DNA of 40,379 nucleotides. Source: an uncultured Bacteroidales bacterium. Lineage in GTDB: Bacteria; Bacteroidota; Bacteroidia; Bacteroidales; UBA932. The stretch is from contig ONTQ01000018.1 in assembly GCA_900320795.1 (NCBI GenBank), positions 1-40,379 of the forward strand, read 5' to 3'. The notes under the pieces were generated by a model. That model worked only from the letters and a program-made list of their open reading frames with translations. It ran no database searches and was not told the DNA's origin. Position 1 is the stretch's first letter. Each line of letters opens with the position of its first letter. Made by a program: the position numbers and the translations under genes. Positions 16,536 through 23,572 of the stretch are shown one piece after another.

Positions 16536-16560
16536 ATTCTTCGCTACGCTCAGAATGACA
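16535..16560. repeat. 26-base dispersed 'CHSERSEE/VILSVAKNL' repeat
   Basis: An imperfect hairpin element (ATTCTTCGC/GCTCAGAAT arms) whose translations give the recurrent spurious peptides CHSERSEES, VILSVAKNL and FFATLRMT seen in many genome annotations. It begins at the SRPBCC stop codon and contains the ATG (16555) of the next gene. Only one copy lies in this window. Confidence 0.65.
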
Positions 16561-19838: not shown

Positions 19839-21020
19839 ATGAGCAGTTTTGACGAAAACGTGGCGCTGTGCGCCCTGAACAGAATTTTCGGGTATCACCC
19901 TACGCTGGCATTGCAACGGATTGCGCAGGCCGGCAGTGCCCTGGCCCTTTTTGACGGTTCGCATACGGAAGGGCAGCCCCATCCTGAACTCATGAGCCGC
20001 CTGGTCCCACAGGAACTGGAGTGGGCGCAGAAGGAACTGGAGCGCGTGCGGGAAGGCGGCTTCCGCTTCCTCTCCCTGGCCGATGAAGACTATCCATCGG
20101 CCCTGAAGGAGTGTCCGGACCCGCCCCTGGGACTGTACCTGAACGGGACCTCCAGCCCGGCGGAAATCTTTGAGATGAGACCCATGGTGGCCTTCGTAGG
20201 CACACGGGACTTGAGCCCATACGGGAAGGCATGGTGCGAGAAACTGGTGACGGCCCTCTCCGAAACCCCGGCCCGGCCGGCCATCGTGAGCGGCCTTGCC
20301 CTGGGGGCCGACGGGGTGGCCCACCGGACCGCCCTGCAATGCGGGCTGCCCACTGTCGGCGTCATGGCCACGGGCATAGAGACCGTGTATCCCTGGCAGC
20401 ATGAGCGGCTGGCCATGGATATGGTCCGGAGCCCTTCCGGAGCCCTTGTCACGGATTATCCCATGGATACGGCTCCCGTGGCCCTCAACTTTGTCCGCCG
20501 CAACCGGATTATCGCGGGTCTTGCCCGGTCCGTTGTGGTGGTGGAATCCAAGAGCAAGGGTGGTTCACTGATGACGGCCAAATATGCCGTGGAATACAGC
20601 CGGGAGGTCTTCGCCGTCCCGGGCCGTTTGGACGATATCCGCAGCGCCGGCTGCAATTCCCTCATTTCCAGCCAGATGGCGCAGATTATCACTTCGCCTG
20701 AGCAGTTGGTATCCGAGCTGGGGCTGGGCGGCAGCCGGCGGCACCGCGCCGCCGGCGGGTCCTGGGTCACCAATCAGGCCGGAGACAGCCCGGAGGAAAG
20801 GTTCCGGCATGCCCTTGTGAGGAAGTACTCGGCCGGATCGGCCCTTATTCCCGTGGCCCTGGCCATTTTCCGGCAACGGGGAATAGGTGTAGAAGAACTG
20901 ATACAGACCATCCGGAGGCCCTATGGAGAAGTCGTTGCCGCTGTTGGCACCCTGGAAGCCGACGGCGTGGTTGACACCGACTTTCTCCGCCGATGCTCGG
21001 TTTCTCCCGCCTGGGGATAG
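19839..21020 (+). CDS. dprA: DNA-processing protein DprA
   Basis: A 393-residue protein that binds incoming single-stranded DNA and loads RecA during natural transformation. The Rossmann-like DprA domain is clear: GTRDLSPYGKAWCEKL at about residue 121, IVSGLALGADGVAH at about 149, and FVRRNRIIAGLARSVVVVES at about 219. An N-terminal SAM-like helical part and a C-terminal winged-helix (RGIGVEELIQTIRRPYGEV) complete the usual architecture. A near-consensus box (TATCTTGC) ends just before the ATG, so it may have its own promoter despite the terminator upstream. A transposase cassette begins 5 bases after its stop codon. Confidence 0.95.
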   Translation: MSSFDENVALCALNRIFGYHPTLALQRIAQAGSALALFDGSHTEGQPHPELMSRLVPQELEWAQKELERVREGGFRFLSLADEDYPSALKECPDPPLGLYLNGTSSPAEIFEMRPMVAFVGTRDLSPYGKAWCEKLVTALSETPARPAIVSGLALGADGVAHRTALQCGLPTVGVMATGIETVYPWQHERLAMDMVRSPSGALVTDYPMDTAPVALNFVRRNRIIAGLARSVVVVESKSKGGSLMTAKYAVEYSREVFAVPGRLDDIRSAGCNSLISSQMAQIITSPEQLVSELGLGGSRRHRAAGGSWVTNQAGDSPEERFRHALVRKYSAGSALIPVALAIFRQRGIGVEELIQTIRRPYGEVVAAVGTLEADGVVDTDFLRRCSVSPAWG

Positions 21021-21025
21021 CACCC

Positions 21026-21136
21026 TGGGCCAGGTGGGATTTCGTACTACCCACCGCGCCCACACATTATGCCATACATGCCTTTAGCCTTCAAAACAGC
21101 GGGCCAGGTGATACACGCAAAATCCCACCTGGCCCA
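21026..21136 (+). repeat. Left end: REP hairpins A and B
   Basis: Hairpin A is 21026-21038 with 21050-21062: TGGGC and GGTGGG pair, split by a 2-base mismatched bulge (CA against GC), loop 11 bases. Hairpin B is 21101-21110 with 21126-21135, a perfect 10-bp stem (GGGCCAGGTG) with a 15-base loop. The 17-mer TGGGCCAGGTGGGATTT at 21026 recurs inverted at 21120-21136. Confidence 0.85.
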
Positions 21137-21150
21137 AAACACAAACCCTT

Positions 21151-22068
21151 ATGAAGAGAATTGTTACCAGAATCCTTCCTTCCGGAGAGTACAAATCCGT
21201 CCACCCATTTCACGTTTGCATCAAAGGCGCGGAAACGGCCGTTCATTGCCGGGATAATGAAGACTATGATGTTTATGTGAAGTACATCGCCTTGTGCGCA
21301 CGAAGGAAAAATGTGCTCGTCGTCATCTATGCAGTGGTATCCAACCACTCCCATGTGGCGGTATTGGCTGCCTTGCAAGCCGATGCAGATGCGTTTGCCC
21401 AGGAACTGAAGAAAATGTATTCCCAGTGGTTCCAGGCCAAGTATCATGAACCCAAAATATTTCATCGGACAGAAGTACAGGCCATTCTTCTGGATAATGA
21501 CTGGTATGTCAGAAATGCGCTGGCCTACATCCCCCGTAATGCCCTGGACAACAAATGCTCCGTCCAGGATTACCCATGGAGCGGTTTTCAGGCCATGTTT
21601 CGCAGAGGTCCCGCCCCGGAAGGGAGAAAGGTAGCATCTCTTACTAAAAGAGAAACCGGCCGCCTGATGCATACACGGGACAAACTGAAAAACGTGGCGT
21701 GGCAACTGGACGAACAGAACAGACTGATTCCGGACAGTTTCTGCGATACCGCCTATTTGGAACAAGCCTTCAACGACGACCCGGCTTATTGGTTCAAGAC
21801 CATCGGCTCGGTGAGCCCTGCCGAGATGGAAGAAAAACTGGTGGATGGGCCACGCCGGATGTTGTCCGATTCCGATTTCCGGAAAATCGTGGCCGATACC
21901 GTTCAGCGCTGGTTCTCCCAGGAACTTGCCACCCTTCCCAGAGACAAGATAATCAGAATCATCCCTTACCTTTGGCGCACTCGGAAAACAAGTGCAAGCC
22001 AACTTGCAAGAGTGATGGGGATAAGCAGGGAGGAAATCGGAAAGATTCTTGGAATCCGGGTGGTGTAG
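21151..22068 (+). CDS. REP-associated Y1 (HUH) transposase, RAYT
   Basis: A 305-residue single-strand DNA transposase of the TnpA-REP/IS200-like class. The N-terminal half is the Y1 domain: PFHVCIKGAE (about 19-28), CRDNEDYDVYVKYI, and the HUH motif in VSNHSHV (H66, H68). Y126 in LAYIPRN is the likely nucleophile, followed by the class-typical DYPWSGFQAM. The C-terminal half adds about 150 residues ending in a helix-turn-helix-like TSASQLARVMGISREEIGKIL, longer than E. coli RAYT but familiar in Bacteroidota. The ATG lies 14 bases after the left REP hairpins, so those hairpins fall in its leader and may control it. The gene appears intact. Confidence 0.88.
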   Translation: MKRIVTRILPSGEYKSVHPFHVCIKGAETAVHCRDNEDYDVYVKYIALCARRKNVLVVIYAVVSNHSHVAVLAALQADADAFAQELKKMYSQWFQAKYHEPKIFHRTEVQAILLDNDWYVRNALAYIPRNALDNKCSVQDYPWSGFQAMFRRGPAPEGRKVASLTKRETGRLMHTRDKLKNVAWQLDEQNRLIPDSFCDTAYLEQAFNDDPAYWFKTIGSVSPAEMEEKLVDGPRRMLSDSDFRKIVADTVQRWFSQELATLPRDKIIRIIPYLWRTRKTSASQLARVMGISREEIGKILGIRVV

Positions 22069-22101
22069 ATTTACGAAAAAAGACCACATTTGCACAGAAC
22101 C

Positions 22102-22658
22102 ATGAAACGTACCCTTCTTGTTTTCTTTCTCTGTATGGCGGCCAGCGTGACGGCTCTTGCCCAGAAGAATTACGCCACGGATACTGTTCGCGCACCGCTG
22201 GCACATGTGTACAACATTGACCGGCTTCTTATAACTTTGCAACTGGACAGTACGCGTTTCAAGGTTCAACTTGGAGGAGAACCTAAAGATGAAATTCCCG
22301 CTTTTGGGGAACGGGATATCCGTCCAGGAGACACCCTGACTCTGTGTGGCATAAGGAATCCGCGGAAATAGTTGCGGAAGCACGATCCGCATCTGCTGTC
22401 GGCCAGAATCCTTTCCGTGGACTATGCGCACAATCATGAAGAGCGACCTTGCTACCTCTTCTTCATGGAACAAAAACCCACATTCCGGGGCCGTGACATG
22501 AATTCCTTCTCCTCGTGGGTCAATAGTTTCTCCGCTTCGAAGGAACCGTGCTTTTGCGCTTTACCATTGACCAGGACGGAAACTTGAAGGATTTGGATGC
22601 GGAAGCATACCGCGTCGTCTCTTCATCTCCCAGGTGGCAACCCGGTCGATGCATTTGA
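22102..22658 (+). pseudogene. Decayed TonB-like C-terminal-domain protein
   Basis: A signal peptide (MKRTLLVFFLCMAASVTALAQ) and about 90 residues run to an in-frame TAG at 22369-22371. The same frame continues with EKQ-like FMEQKPTFRGRDMNSF and SSWVNSF, which match the start of TonB C-terminal domains. At about 22530-22540 the frame shifts by -1 and the domain resumes as EGTVLLRFTIDQDGNLKD and VVSSSPRWQPGR up to TGA at 22656-22658. The piece normally between these parts (the LVYPEIAKENGVQG region) is missing. So there is one nonsense change and one frameshift with deletion, and the right REP begins one base after the last stop codon. It lies inside the RAYT cassette as passenger DNA. Confidence 0.8.
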
Positions 22659-22659
22659 C

Positions 22660-22770
22660 TGGGCCAGGTGTGTTTTTATGCGCTCCACCTGGCCCACTGT
22701 TTTAGCCACTCAAGGTTTGTGTGGCAATAATCCTGGGCGTGGTGGGCAGCAAGAAATCCCACCTGGCCCA
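22660..22770 (-). repeat. Right end: REP hairpins B' and A'
   Basis: Hairpin B' is 22660-22670 with 22686-22696, a perfect 11-bp stem. Hairpin A' is 22734-22746 with 22758-22770, again 5+6 bp split by a 2-base mismatch (GT against TG), loop 11 bases. On the minus strand it reads like the left end and carries the same 17-mer at its outer tip. Confidence 0.85.
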
Positions 22771-22801: not shown

Positions 22802-23572
22802 GTGTTTGTGGATACACATACTCATTTCTACGACGAGTGGCTGCTTCCGGATGCGGAAGAAGCCATTCAAAGAGCCTTGGAGGCCGGCGTCGGAAAAATG
22901 ATCCAGGCCGACGTGGATTCCCACGAGCGGCCCGCCATGTGGGAAATCGGCAAACGCGATCCCGGCGTCCTTTTCCAGATGGCCGGCCTGTATCCTGGTT
23001 CCGTCACGGCCGAAAACTGGAAAGAGGAACTCGCCCTTGCCGAGGAAACTGCCACCTCGCACAAAATCGTTGCTATCGGCGAAATCGGCCTTGACTATCA
23101 TGAAGGGAAGGATTTTGTCCGGGAGCAGAAAGAGGTTTTAAGGTTGCAGTTCGAACTGGCCACCCGGCTGAATCTTCCGGTGAACATCCACCTTAGGGAT
23201 GCCTGGGAAGATTTTTTTGAAGTGCTTTCAGATTGTAAGCACTTGCACCTGAGAGGTAATCTTCACTGCTTCACGGCCAGCTACGAGATTTACGAAAGAG
23301 CCAACCGCTGGGCCGATTTCTCCGTGGGGATCGGCGGTGTCGTCACCTTCAGGAACGCATCCCTCCCCAAAACACTGGAGCGCATTCCGGTGGAAAAGAT
23401 CCTGCTGGAAACCGATGCGCCCTACCTGGCCCCGGTCCCCTTCCGCGGCCGCCGCAACGAGAGCGCCTACCTTCCCCTCATCGCAGCCAAAGTGGCCGAG
23501 GTCAAGGGGCTGCCCGTCCAAGAGATTGAAACCATCACCACCCATAACGCTGAAACGCTGTTCGGAATATGA
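22802..23572 (+). CDS. tatD: TatD-family metal-dependent hydrolase/DNase
   Basis: A 256-residue TIM-barrel hydrolase of the TatD/YcfH class. Metal ligands are visible: DTHTH at residues 4-8 (H6, H8), E94 in GEIGLD, histidines in NIHLRDA and NLHCFT, and an Asp in LETDAPYLAP. The start is GTG at 22802, which gives the family's usual MFVDTHTH opening; a longer frame would read through the REP hairpin and the promoter. Members act as 3'-5' exonucleases or D-aminoacyl/phosphoesterase-like enzymes; the exact substrate is unclear. It overlaps ansA by 4 bases (ATGA). Confidence 0.93.
   Translation: MFVDTHTHFYDEWLLPDAEEAIQRALEAGVGKMIQADVDSHERPAMWEIGKRDPGVLFQMAGLYPGSVTAENWKEELALAEETATSHKIVAIGEIGLDYHEGKDFVREQKEVLRLQFELATRLNLPVNIHLRDAWEDFFEVLSDCKHLHLRGNLHCFTASYEIYERANRWADFSVGIGGVVTFRNASLPKTLERIPVEKILLETDAPYLAPVPFRGRRNESAYLPLIAAKVAEVKGLPVQEIETITTHNAETLFGI

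Follow-up and report, generated by a model that had tools for sequence, protein, structure and literature searches.

What, if anything, moves at a locus where an apparently intact Y1 gene is enclosed by long inverted repeats between two host genes? The window analysed here, a 40,379-nucleotide stretch of contig ONTQ01000018.1 from an uncultured Bacteroidales bacterium (GCA_900320795.1), contains such an arrangement between dprA and tatD (Table 1). A sequence-only reading had described it as a REPtron-like cassette whose 111-base ends agree at 83 positions and hold two hairpins each, and had suggested that the whole unit might be the mobile form that seeds REPs around the genome. The anatomical part of that description held. 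Aligned in inverted orientation without gaps, the two 111-nt arms agree at 83 of 111 positions at exactly the coordinates first given, against a best of 49 in 20,000 shuffles; read directly, they agree at 69 of 111. Because each end is itself partly palindromic with two hairpins (the right arm agrees with its own reverse complement at 78 of 111 positions, the left arm at 62), the inverted relation is partly built in. The doublet of REP hairpins at each end makes it a REPIN, and the unit is thus REPtron-like, a RAYT with its own flanking repeats. As to the suggestion that such two-hairpin ends are little described in Bacteroidota, two hairpins per end are the known form of a REPIN, and TnpA_REP genes with flanking repeats have been reported from Bacteroidetes (excerpts of PMC3116915 and PMC6006769, respectively). 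We consider it probable (about 0.78) that the locus is a REPtron whose RAYT copies or moves its own REPINs in trans, its gene being fixed behind dprA.

Table 1. Features of the dprA-tatD interval, in positions of the window
Feature	Coordinates	Strand	Basis or remark
dprA, upstream host gene	19839..21020	+	
Left REPIN	21026..21136	+	2 REP hairpins, 17-nt perfect outer arms; between dprA stop and RAYT start
RAYT / TnpA_REP-like Y1 HUH protein, 305 aa	21151..22068	+	Pfam and PDB fold
NHSH (HUH) motif, residues 65-68	21343..21354	+	protein alignments
Candidate catalytic tyrosine Y126 in YIPRNA	21526..21528	+	protein alignments
RAYT residues 166-176, putative REP-reading segment (window: K166, G170, R176)	21646..21678	+	
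Decayed gene, presumably TonB-like, in RAYT to right REPIN interval	22108..22650	+	decay judged by eye
Right REPIN	22660..22770	+	
tatD, downstream host gene	22802..23572	+	start set by eye from relatives

For tatD, the frame in the list of open reading frames begins at 22721, and the start in the table is preferred by comparison with relatives. The decayed gene, presumably TonB-like, had no match in a family search among the matches listed; relative L010 has an open 240-aa frame in its place. In the closest relative, L048 (G019:C8), a tatD-ansA-exbB block lies upstream of dprA on the opposite strand, which places a rearrangement breakpoint near the cassette. A short repeat of the type TTCGCT..GCTC.GAATGAC was seen in the window at 16540-16559 and at about 2026-2060 of L210, with many matches in several relatives; looked for as GTCATTC.GAGC, it was not found at ten loci (L037-L046) of this genome's other RAYT homologues.

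The window protein scores under the cut-off of Pfam Y1_Tnp (E 2.9e-4; 21.4 bits, cut-off 23), and an NCBIfam search with it gave no match. The Y1 gene is intact, with H66, H68 and Y126 in place as the sequence-only reading had it, and these residues and N65 are invariant in an alignment of 34 proteins. Among 103 RAYTs, NHxH is kept in 102 (the remaining one has THCH), NH[CSAG]H is found in 96 and Y[IV]PRNA in 88. An AlphaFold2 model made with the 34-sequence alignment (pLDDT 92.4) had a single match below E 0.001 in a fold search of the PDB, namely 4er8, TnpA_REP bound to REP (E 5.6e-4; TM 0.34 by query length and 0.58 by target length), with the TnpA proteins of ISDra2 and IS608 ranking next. 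A PDB sequence search with the RAYT profile found no relative (best E 0.56), so the link to 4er8 comes from the fold search. The protein has the HUH motif and the one downstream catalytic tyrosine of the RAYT / TnpA_REP class 2 of TnpA_Y1, and its predicted structure has the TnpA_REP fold. The motifs printed for TnpA_Y1 subclasses 2.4 and 2.6 in the excerpts of PMC6006769 (NH[IFV]H/YIxNNP and NH[LIV]H/YIH[QN]NP) are absent from it. As these printed motifs, by which the two subclasses were judged, and the GT[AG]G foot considered below both fail, the window RAYT is filed as a putative new RAYT subfamily with atypical REPs. The gene is single-copy, the next full-length homologue in the genome being 37% identical, with the proviso that a second copy may have been lost from an assembly 85% complete. 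Eight more distant homologues (17-27% identical) lie in this genome (G000) on C158, C193, C160, C229, C164, C184, C91 and C141.

A strict detector run on the flanks of 102 RAYT loci found at least one REPIN beside the RAYT in 82 of them, as against 5 of 102 with the flanks reversed and 0 of 102 both in shuffled flanks and within the RAYT gene; some of the misses fall close to a contig end, and others have REP words that can be seen but are looser. The lengths detected cluster near 110 and near 98 bp. For the structure we used 49 of 92 registered REPINs, of length 110-113 and at most 85% alike without gaps. In the two-hairpin structure 91.9% of cells are paired, versus 50.6% and 48.7% at one-column slides, and in the long-hairpin structure 88.7%, percentages that lean upward because the sequences were chosen by a detector demanding pairing. 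The variety of compensated pairs is stronger evidence for the repeat structure than these percentages: double-change cells number 136 versus 37.5 in shuffles for the two-hairpin structure and 189 versus 64.0 for the long-hairpin one, and on two weaker measures of covariation in the former, 13 of 500 shuffles reached the observed number of pairs showing a double change and 15 of 500 that of further pair types. The bases just within the arms pair in 68.6% of cells in the long form versus 51.0% in the short, the two forms being hard to separate because all four arms share one sequence. GGT is invariant in the left arm of each hairpin but was required by the detector; the ACC that matches it varies little or not at all, and variation is wide at bases 3-6. 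Inverted REP pairs forming hairpins beside a RAYT, the defining trait of a REPIN, are thereby present, and canonical REPs of the GT[AG]G type are not: that foot occurs at 2 of 184 outer feet, where the reversed motif used as a control occurs at 5, and at 7 of 126 inner feet. The outer flanks of the 92 REPINs, compared for conserved bases that might mark the cut site, had a T-rich bias only, with about 50% T at -1 to -3. At L101, L137 and L145 additional REP half-sites adjoin the RAYT in a tandem array with a spacing of 22 bp.

Subfamily RAYTs are present in 89 of 300 congeners at E 1e-45 or better, the window's genome included, and in 115 of 400 genomes of a larger draw at E 1e-60. A class-wide draw of 295 genomes (profile E 1e-30) gave a match in the window's own genome and in none of the other 294. 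The titled relatives are Bacteroidales or Bacteroidia MAGs, several of them labelled rumen, reticulum or omasum.

The REPINs are dispersed. A covariance model applied to 25 hand-chosen RAYT genomes and 10 without (no match at 1e-45 in the 300-genome survey) found matches in 25 of 25 and 2 of 10, respectively (Fisher p 1.9e-6), a contrast that is partly circular because flanking REPINs of many of the tested genomes had trained the model. Strand-hits ranged from 4 to 53 per RAYT genome, most places being counted on both strands and the best 108 candidates being scored in each; scoring 150 candidates in the window's genome added none at E 0.001. With E 0.05 as the limit, that genome gave 27 strand-hits spread over 14 places, of which four are partial, a low count and a lower bound, since the assembly is 85% complete and in 266 contigs. 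By eye these REPINs sort into three families. The window-type core, TGGGCCAGGT, stands at four places (two in the window, one on C157 and, as one hairpin, on C111), and the 17-mer that the sequence-only reading proposed as a probe has three occurrences inside the window and one elsewhere in the genome. A second core, TGCAAAAGGT or nearly so, is found at eight places. The other two REPINs measure 98 bp, and C171, where the 37% identical RAYT lies, has one of them. On C257 (G000:C257 40974-42468; loci L043, L212 and L215) REPINs with the TGCAAAAGGT type of core stand on either side of a relic RAYT in which a match to the first 39-47 RAYT residues overlaps, in another frame, one to some 30-40 near-end residues, the middle being missing. 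With no full-length RAYT of this family found in the assembly, the repeat family seems to outlive its RAYT in this genome.

At the copy on C157, the left flank of relatives aligns up to the repeat and their right flank resumes 7-19 bp beyond it. Some match to the locus was present in 16 of 17 genomes, and the gap was inspected in the ten for which loci were returned: it measures 38-62 bp and holds no REPIN by eye in six (G062, G081, G075, G028, G078 and G312), as against 130 bp here, holds repeats of another core, TGGACCTGGTCCA, in G171, and is filled by 131-179 bp of other sequence in the remaining three. Because the flanks of the empty-site relatives align at only about 71-86%, the exact junctions are unreadable. 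It had been proposed that the same cassette in every relative, with no other copies and no empty sites, would mark a static structure; both copies and empty sites exist.

The dprA-tatD junction itself was compared at 30 dprA loci, the window included. At 22 of these dprA and tatD are adjacent (match gaps of 3-82 nt) with no RAYT between them; of the others, five have a RAYT behind dprA, one (L083) has it before dprA and two show no tatD. In a quick tree the 18 RAYTs that follow dprA form one clade (SH-aLRT 93), to which L106 also belongs; L106 is nearly identical to L105, and its contig stops 355 bp upstream. On the dprA tree the carrier label requires five changes; L059-L061 and L065 are non-carriers amid carriers, which makes losses likely, and L103, also a carrier, falls in the tree's other half. 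At L103 (G098) dprA is 41% and tatD 76% identical to those of the window and the RAYT is close; replacement of dprA and transfer of the cassette are candidate readings.

These observations bear on two alternatives to a REPIN-moving RAYT. That the 1.75-kb cassette moves whole, as an insertion sequence or as a composite, would account for its inverted-repeat boundaries, its absence from the same gap at 22 of 30 loci, and the presence of subfamily RAYTs at other loci elsewhere, including one pair before dprA (L083 and L014). Yet the genome holds no second full-length copy of the RAYT (in an assembly 85% complete), its nearest homologue there being 37% identical; unit transposition with near-identical copies, as in IS200/IS605, was not found; and the dprA-linked RAYTs are one clade within which the site stayed constant as the core changed, cores there including GGGCCAGGT, GGGGAAGGT, GGACCAGGT and GCGGAAGGT. 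We therefore regard movement of the whole cassette as very unlikely. The RAYT gene itself looks static, and the data support the 111-bp REPIN, rather than the 1.75-kb cassette, as the mobile unit. Of the suggested REP-seeding mobile unit, what stands is the seeding, with REPINs at other loci and a C157 site that is empty in relatives; movement of the cassette found no support. The other alternative is that the REPINs serve the host as regulatory or structural hairpins (terminators, mRNA ends or nucleoid sites) and that the RAYT has been domesticated, perhaps acting with DprA on incoming single strands. The RAYT match begins only 0-21 nt past the dprA match in L008, L053, L118, L119 and L133, and the single dprA-linked clade would also fit such a role. 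It is harder to reconcile with the four non-carriers among carriers, with a dprA-following position in only 18 of 103 RAYTs (some contigs being too short to tell) and with stem bases that follow the RAYT lineage, and we find it improbable. In the REPtron reading that we prefer, the Y1 HUH protein would recognise the hairpin stem of its own REPs and, by analogy with the biochemistry of TnpA_REP and IS200/IS605, would cut and rejoin them as single strands, so that 111-bp REPINs would be copied or moved in trans and the RAYT gene would stay behind. The window RAYT is presumably active.

The REP core follows the RAYT closely. A common core is seen in 10 of 10 RAYT pairs with an identity of 85% or more, and the fraction is 38 of 47 at 70-85%, 69 of 225 at 60-70%, 62 of 1194 at 50-60% and 2 of 839 at 40-50%. 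Where two RAYTs of a single genome both have a known core, the cores differ in 9 of 9 pairs, at a single base in one pair and at up to 5 of 11 bases in the others. RAYT columns were scanned against core bases in 69 training loci. Residue 170 tracks base 5 without exception there (E with G, 27 of 27; R, G, D or K with C, 34 of 34; I, A, V, H or M with A, 8 of 8), residue 166 tracks bases 3 and 4, and residue 176 tracks base 6. In the model all three lie in or just past a predicted helix at 166-173.

The resulting rule was fixed before 60 further RAYT loci were fetched. A core could be read at 36 of these, and one of the 36, a copy of L014, was set aside. The rule was right for base 5 at 30 of 35 loci (misses at L240, L257, L258, L259 and L275), for base 4 (K166 to G) at 8 of 8 and for base 6 (G176 to A, H176 to C) at 28 of 28; a guess taken from the closest RAYT of known core scored 25 of 35, 6 of 8 and 28 of 28. 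Some test loci are close to what had been seen: L238, L255, L262 and L273 are 93-98% identical to a training RAYT, several come from genomes in which another RAYT had been sampled earlier, and L285-L287 are alike in core and in segment. Among test loci less than 65% identical to training, the rule scored 13 of 18, 6 of 6 and 16 of 16 for bases 5, 4 and 6, and the nearest relative 8 of 18, 4 of 6 and 16 of 16; thus base 6 adds nothing beyond ancestry in the test loci, whereas bases 4 and 5 do. With all loci pooled, G5 is found at 41 of 42 E170 loci versus 0 of 62 others, G4 at 45 of 47 with K166 versus 7 of 57, and A6 at 55 of 56 with G176 versus 2 of 48.

Such an association could reflect only the shared ancestry of RAYT and REP, with no contact between residue and base. 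Cores do follow RAYT similarity closely, and the nearest relative equals the rule for base 6 and comes near it for base 5. On a tree built without columns 160-182, position 5 shows 10 changes of residue and 11 of base; independent pairs on supported branches agree at 5 of 5 for residue 170 (median p 0.0625), about 4.1 of 5 for 166 (p 0.125) and about 2.9 of 4 for 176 (p 0.25), so that none of these tests, which have low power, reaches p 0.05. Off-register controls, however, change the same way in only 1.3-1.8 and the opposite way in 0.4-1.4 of 4-5 pairs, and a pooled rescan of 256 RAYT columns against seven core positions peaks in one segment: the top columns for bases 1, 2, 3, 5 and 6 are 167, 167, 166, 170 and 176, and column 170 stands 11.7 deviations above the median column for base 5, the next reaching 4.9. 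The peak is less clean elsewhere. Column 93 is top and 166 third for base 4, base 11 has its top at column 102, and column 63 ranks second both for base 5 and for base 6, where it nearly matches column 176 (8.0 versus 9.9 deviations); these three columns could be further contacts or products of shared ancestry. Given the concentration in one segment and the better score of the rule for base 5 in distant loci, ancestry as the sole cause seems to us unlikely, and residues 166-176 probably touch REP bases. In chemical terms, Arg would read G and Glu would read C, both on the opposite strand.

We thus lean, with some reserve, towards a modular code in which one segment after the Y1 core would specify the stem, residues 166/167 setting bases 2-4, residue 170 base 5 and residue 176 base 6. 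The radiation would be genus-wide, changes in the segment followed by sweeps of the repeats creating mutually blind REPIN populations within a genome, with about half of the RAYTs coupled to an orphan partner gene (described below) for which dprA would stand in here. Co-evolution of RAYT and REP is published, as are the contacts of E. coli TnpA_REP with GTAG (excerpts of PMC3116915 and PMC8266576); a residue-to-base code for the variable stem was not reported in the mostly open-access literature searched, including the excerpts of PMC6006769, PMC8266576, PMC3733652 and PMC3116915. With more than 100 natural RAYT/REP pairs of differing specificity within one genus, the question of a code can be put to a direct test; were the code confirmed, one could predict the targets of a hairpin-specific single-strand nuclease.

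Among known systems, the REPIN-RAYT of Pseudomonas fluorescens SBW25, as described in the excerpts of PMC3116915, is similar in having a single-copy RAYT with inverted REP doublets both adjoining and scattered, and several private RAYT/REPIN pairs per genome; the present system differs in fewer copies found per genome, lack of the GT[AG]G foot, another protein subfamily and, often, a partner gene. E. coli TnpA_REP (4er8; excerpts of PMC8266576) likewise combines a Y1 HUH fold with REP hairpins beside the gene and stem mismatches, but it heavily contacts a GTAG guide that is absent here, whereas the present protein has 305 aa with a long helical tail and apparently reads variable stem bases individually. 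Subclass 2.6 of TnpA_Y1 (Bertels group 5) shares the Bacteroidetes host and REPs without a GT[AG]G foot; by the description in the excerpts of PMC6006769 it has a median of 179 aa with NH[LIV]H, WQ and YIH[QN]NP, whereas the proteins of the present subfamily have about 305 aa and, for the most part, NH[CSAG]H and Y[IV]PRNA. IS608 and ISDra2 of the IS200/IS605 family also have a Y1 HUH enzyme acting on hairpins near their ends, but they move as a unit with near-identical copies, and here no second gene copy was found.

The partner is a conserved upstream gene of 116-119 or about 126-151 aa that adjoins the RAYT in 52 of 103 loci, its match stopping 3-30 nt ahead of the RAYT match in 49 of the 52. 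Its protein had nothing above cut-off in Pfam (best E 0.0062), nothing below E 0.02 in PHROGs and a best E of 2.3 against PDB folds, and no match to it was found at seven of the eight more distant homologues of this genome, the seven scored for it. Our literature search, which favoured open-access papers and had no direct target in the case of the partner gene, found no report of a RAYT partner gene or of a link to dprA; the two offer new handles on the persistence of single-copy RAYTs. In 61 congeners a profile of the partner has 23 matches, spread over 20 of these genomes, and 15 of the matches adjoin a listed RAYT by coordinates. In the window's genome the partner is present on C171 and absent at the window locus, where the RAYT follows dprA, and throughout the dprA-linked clade dprA occupies the position of the partner gene.
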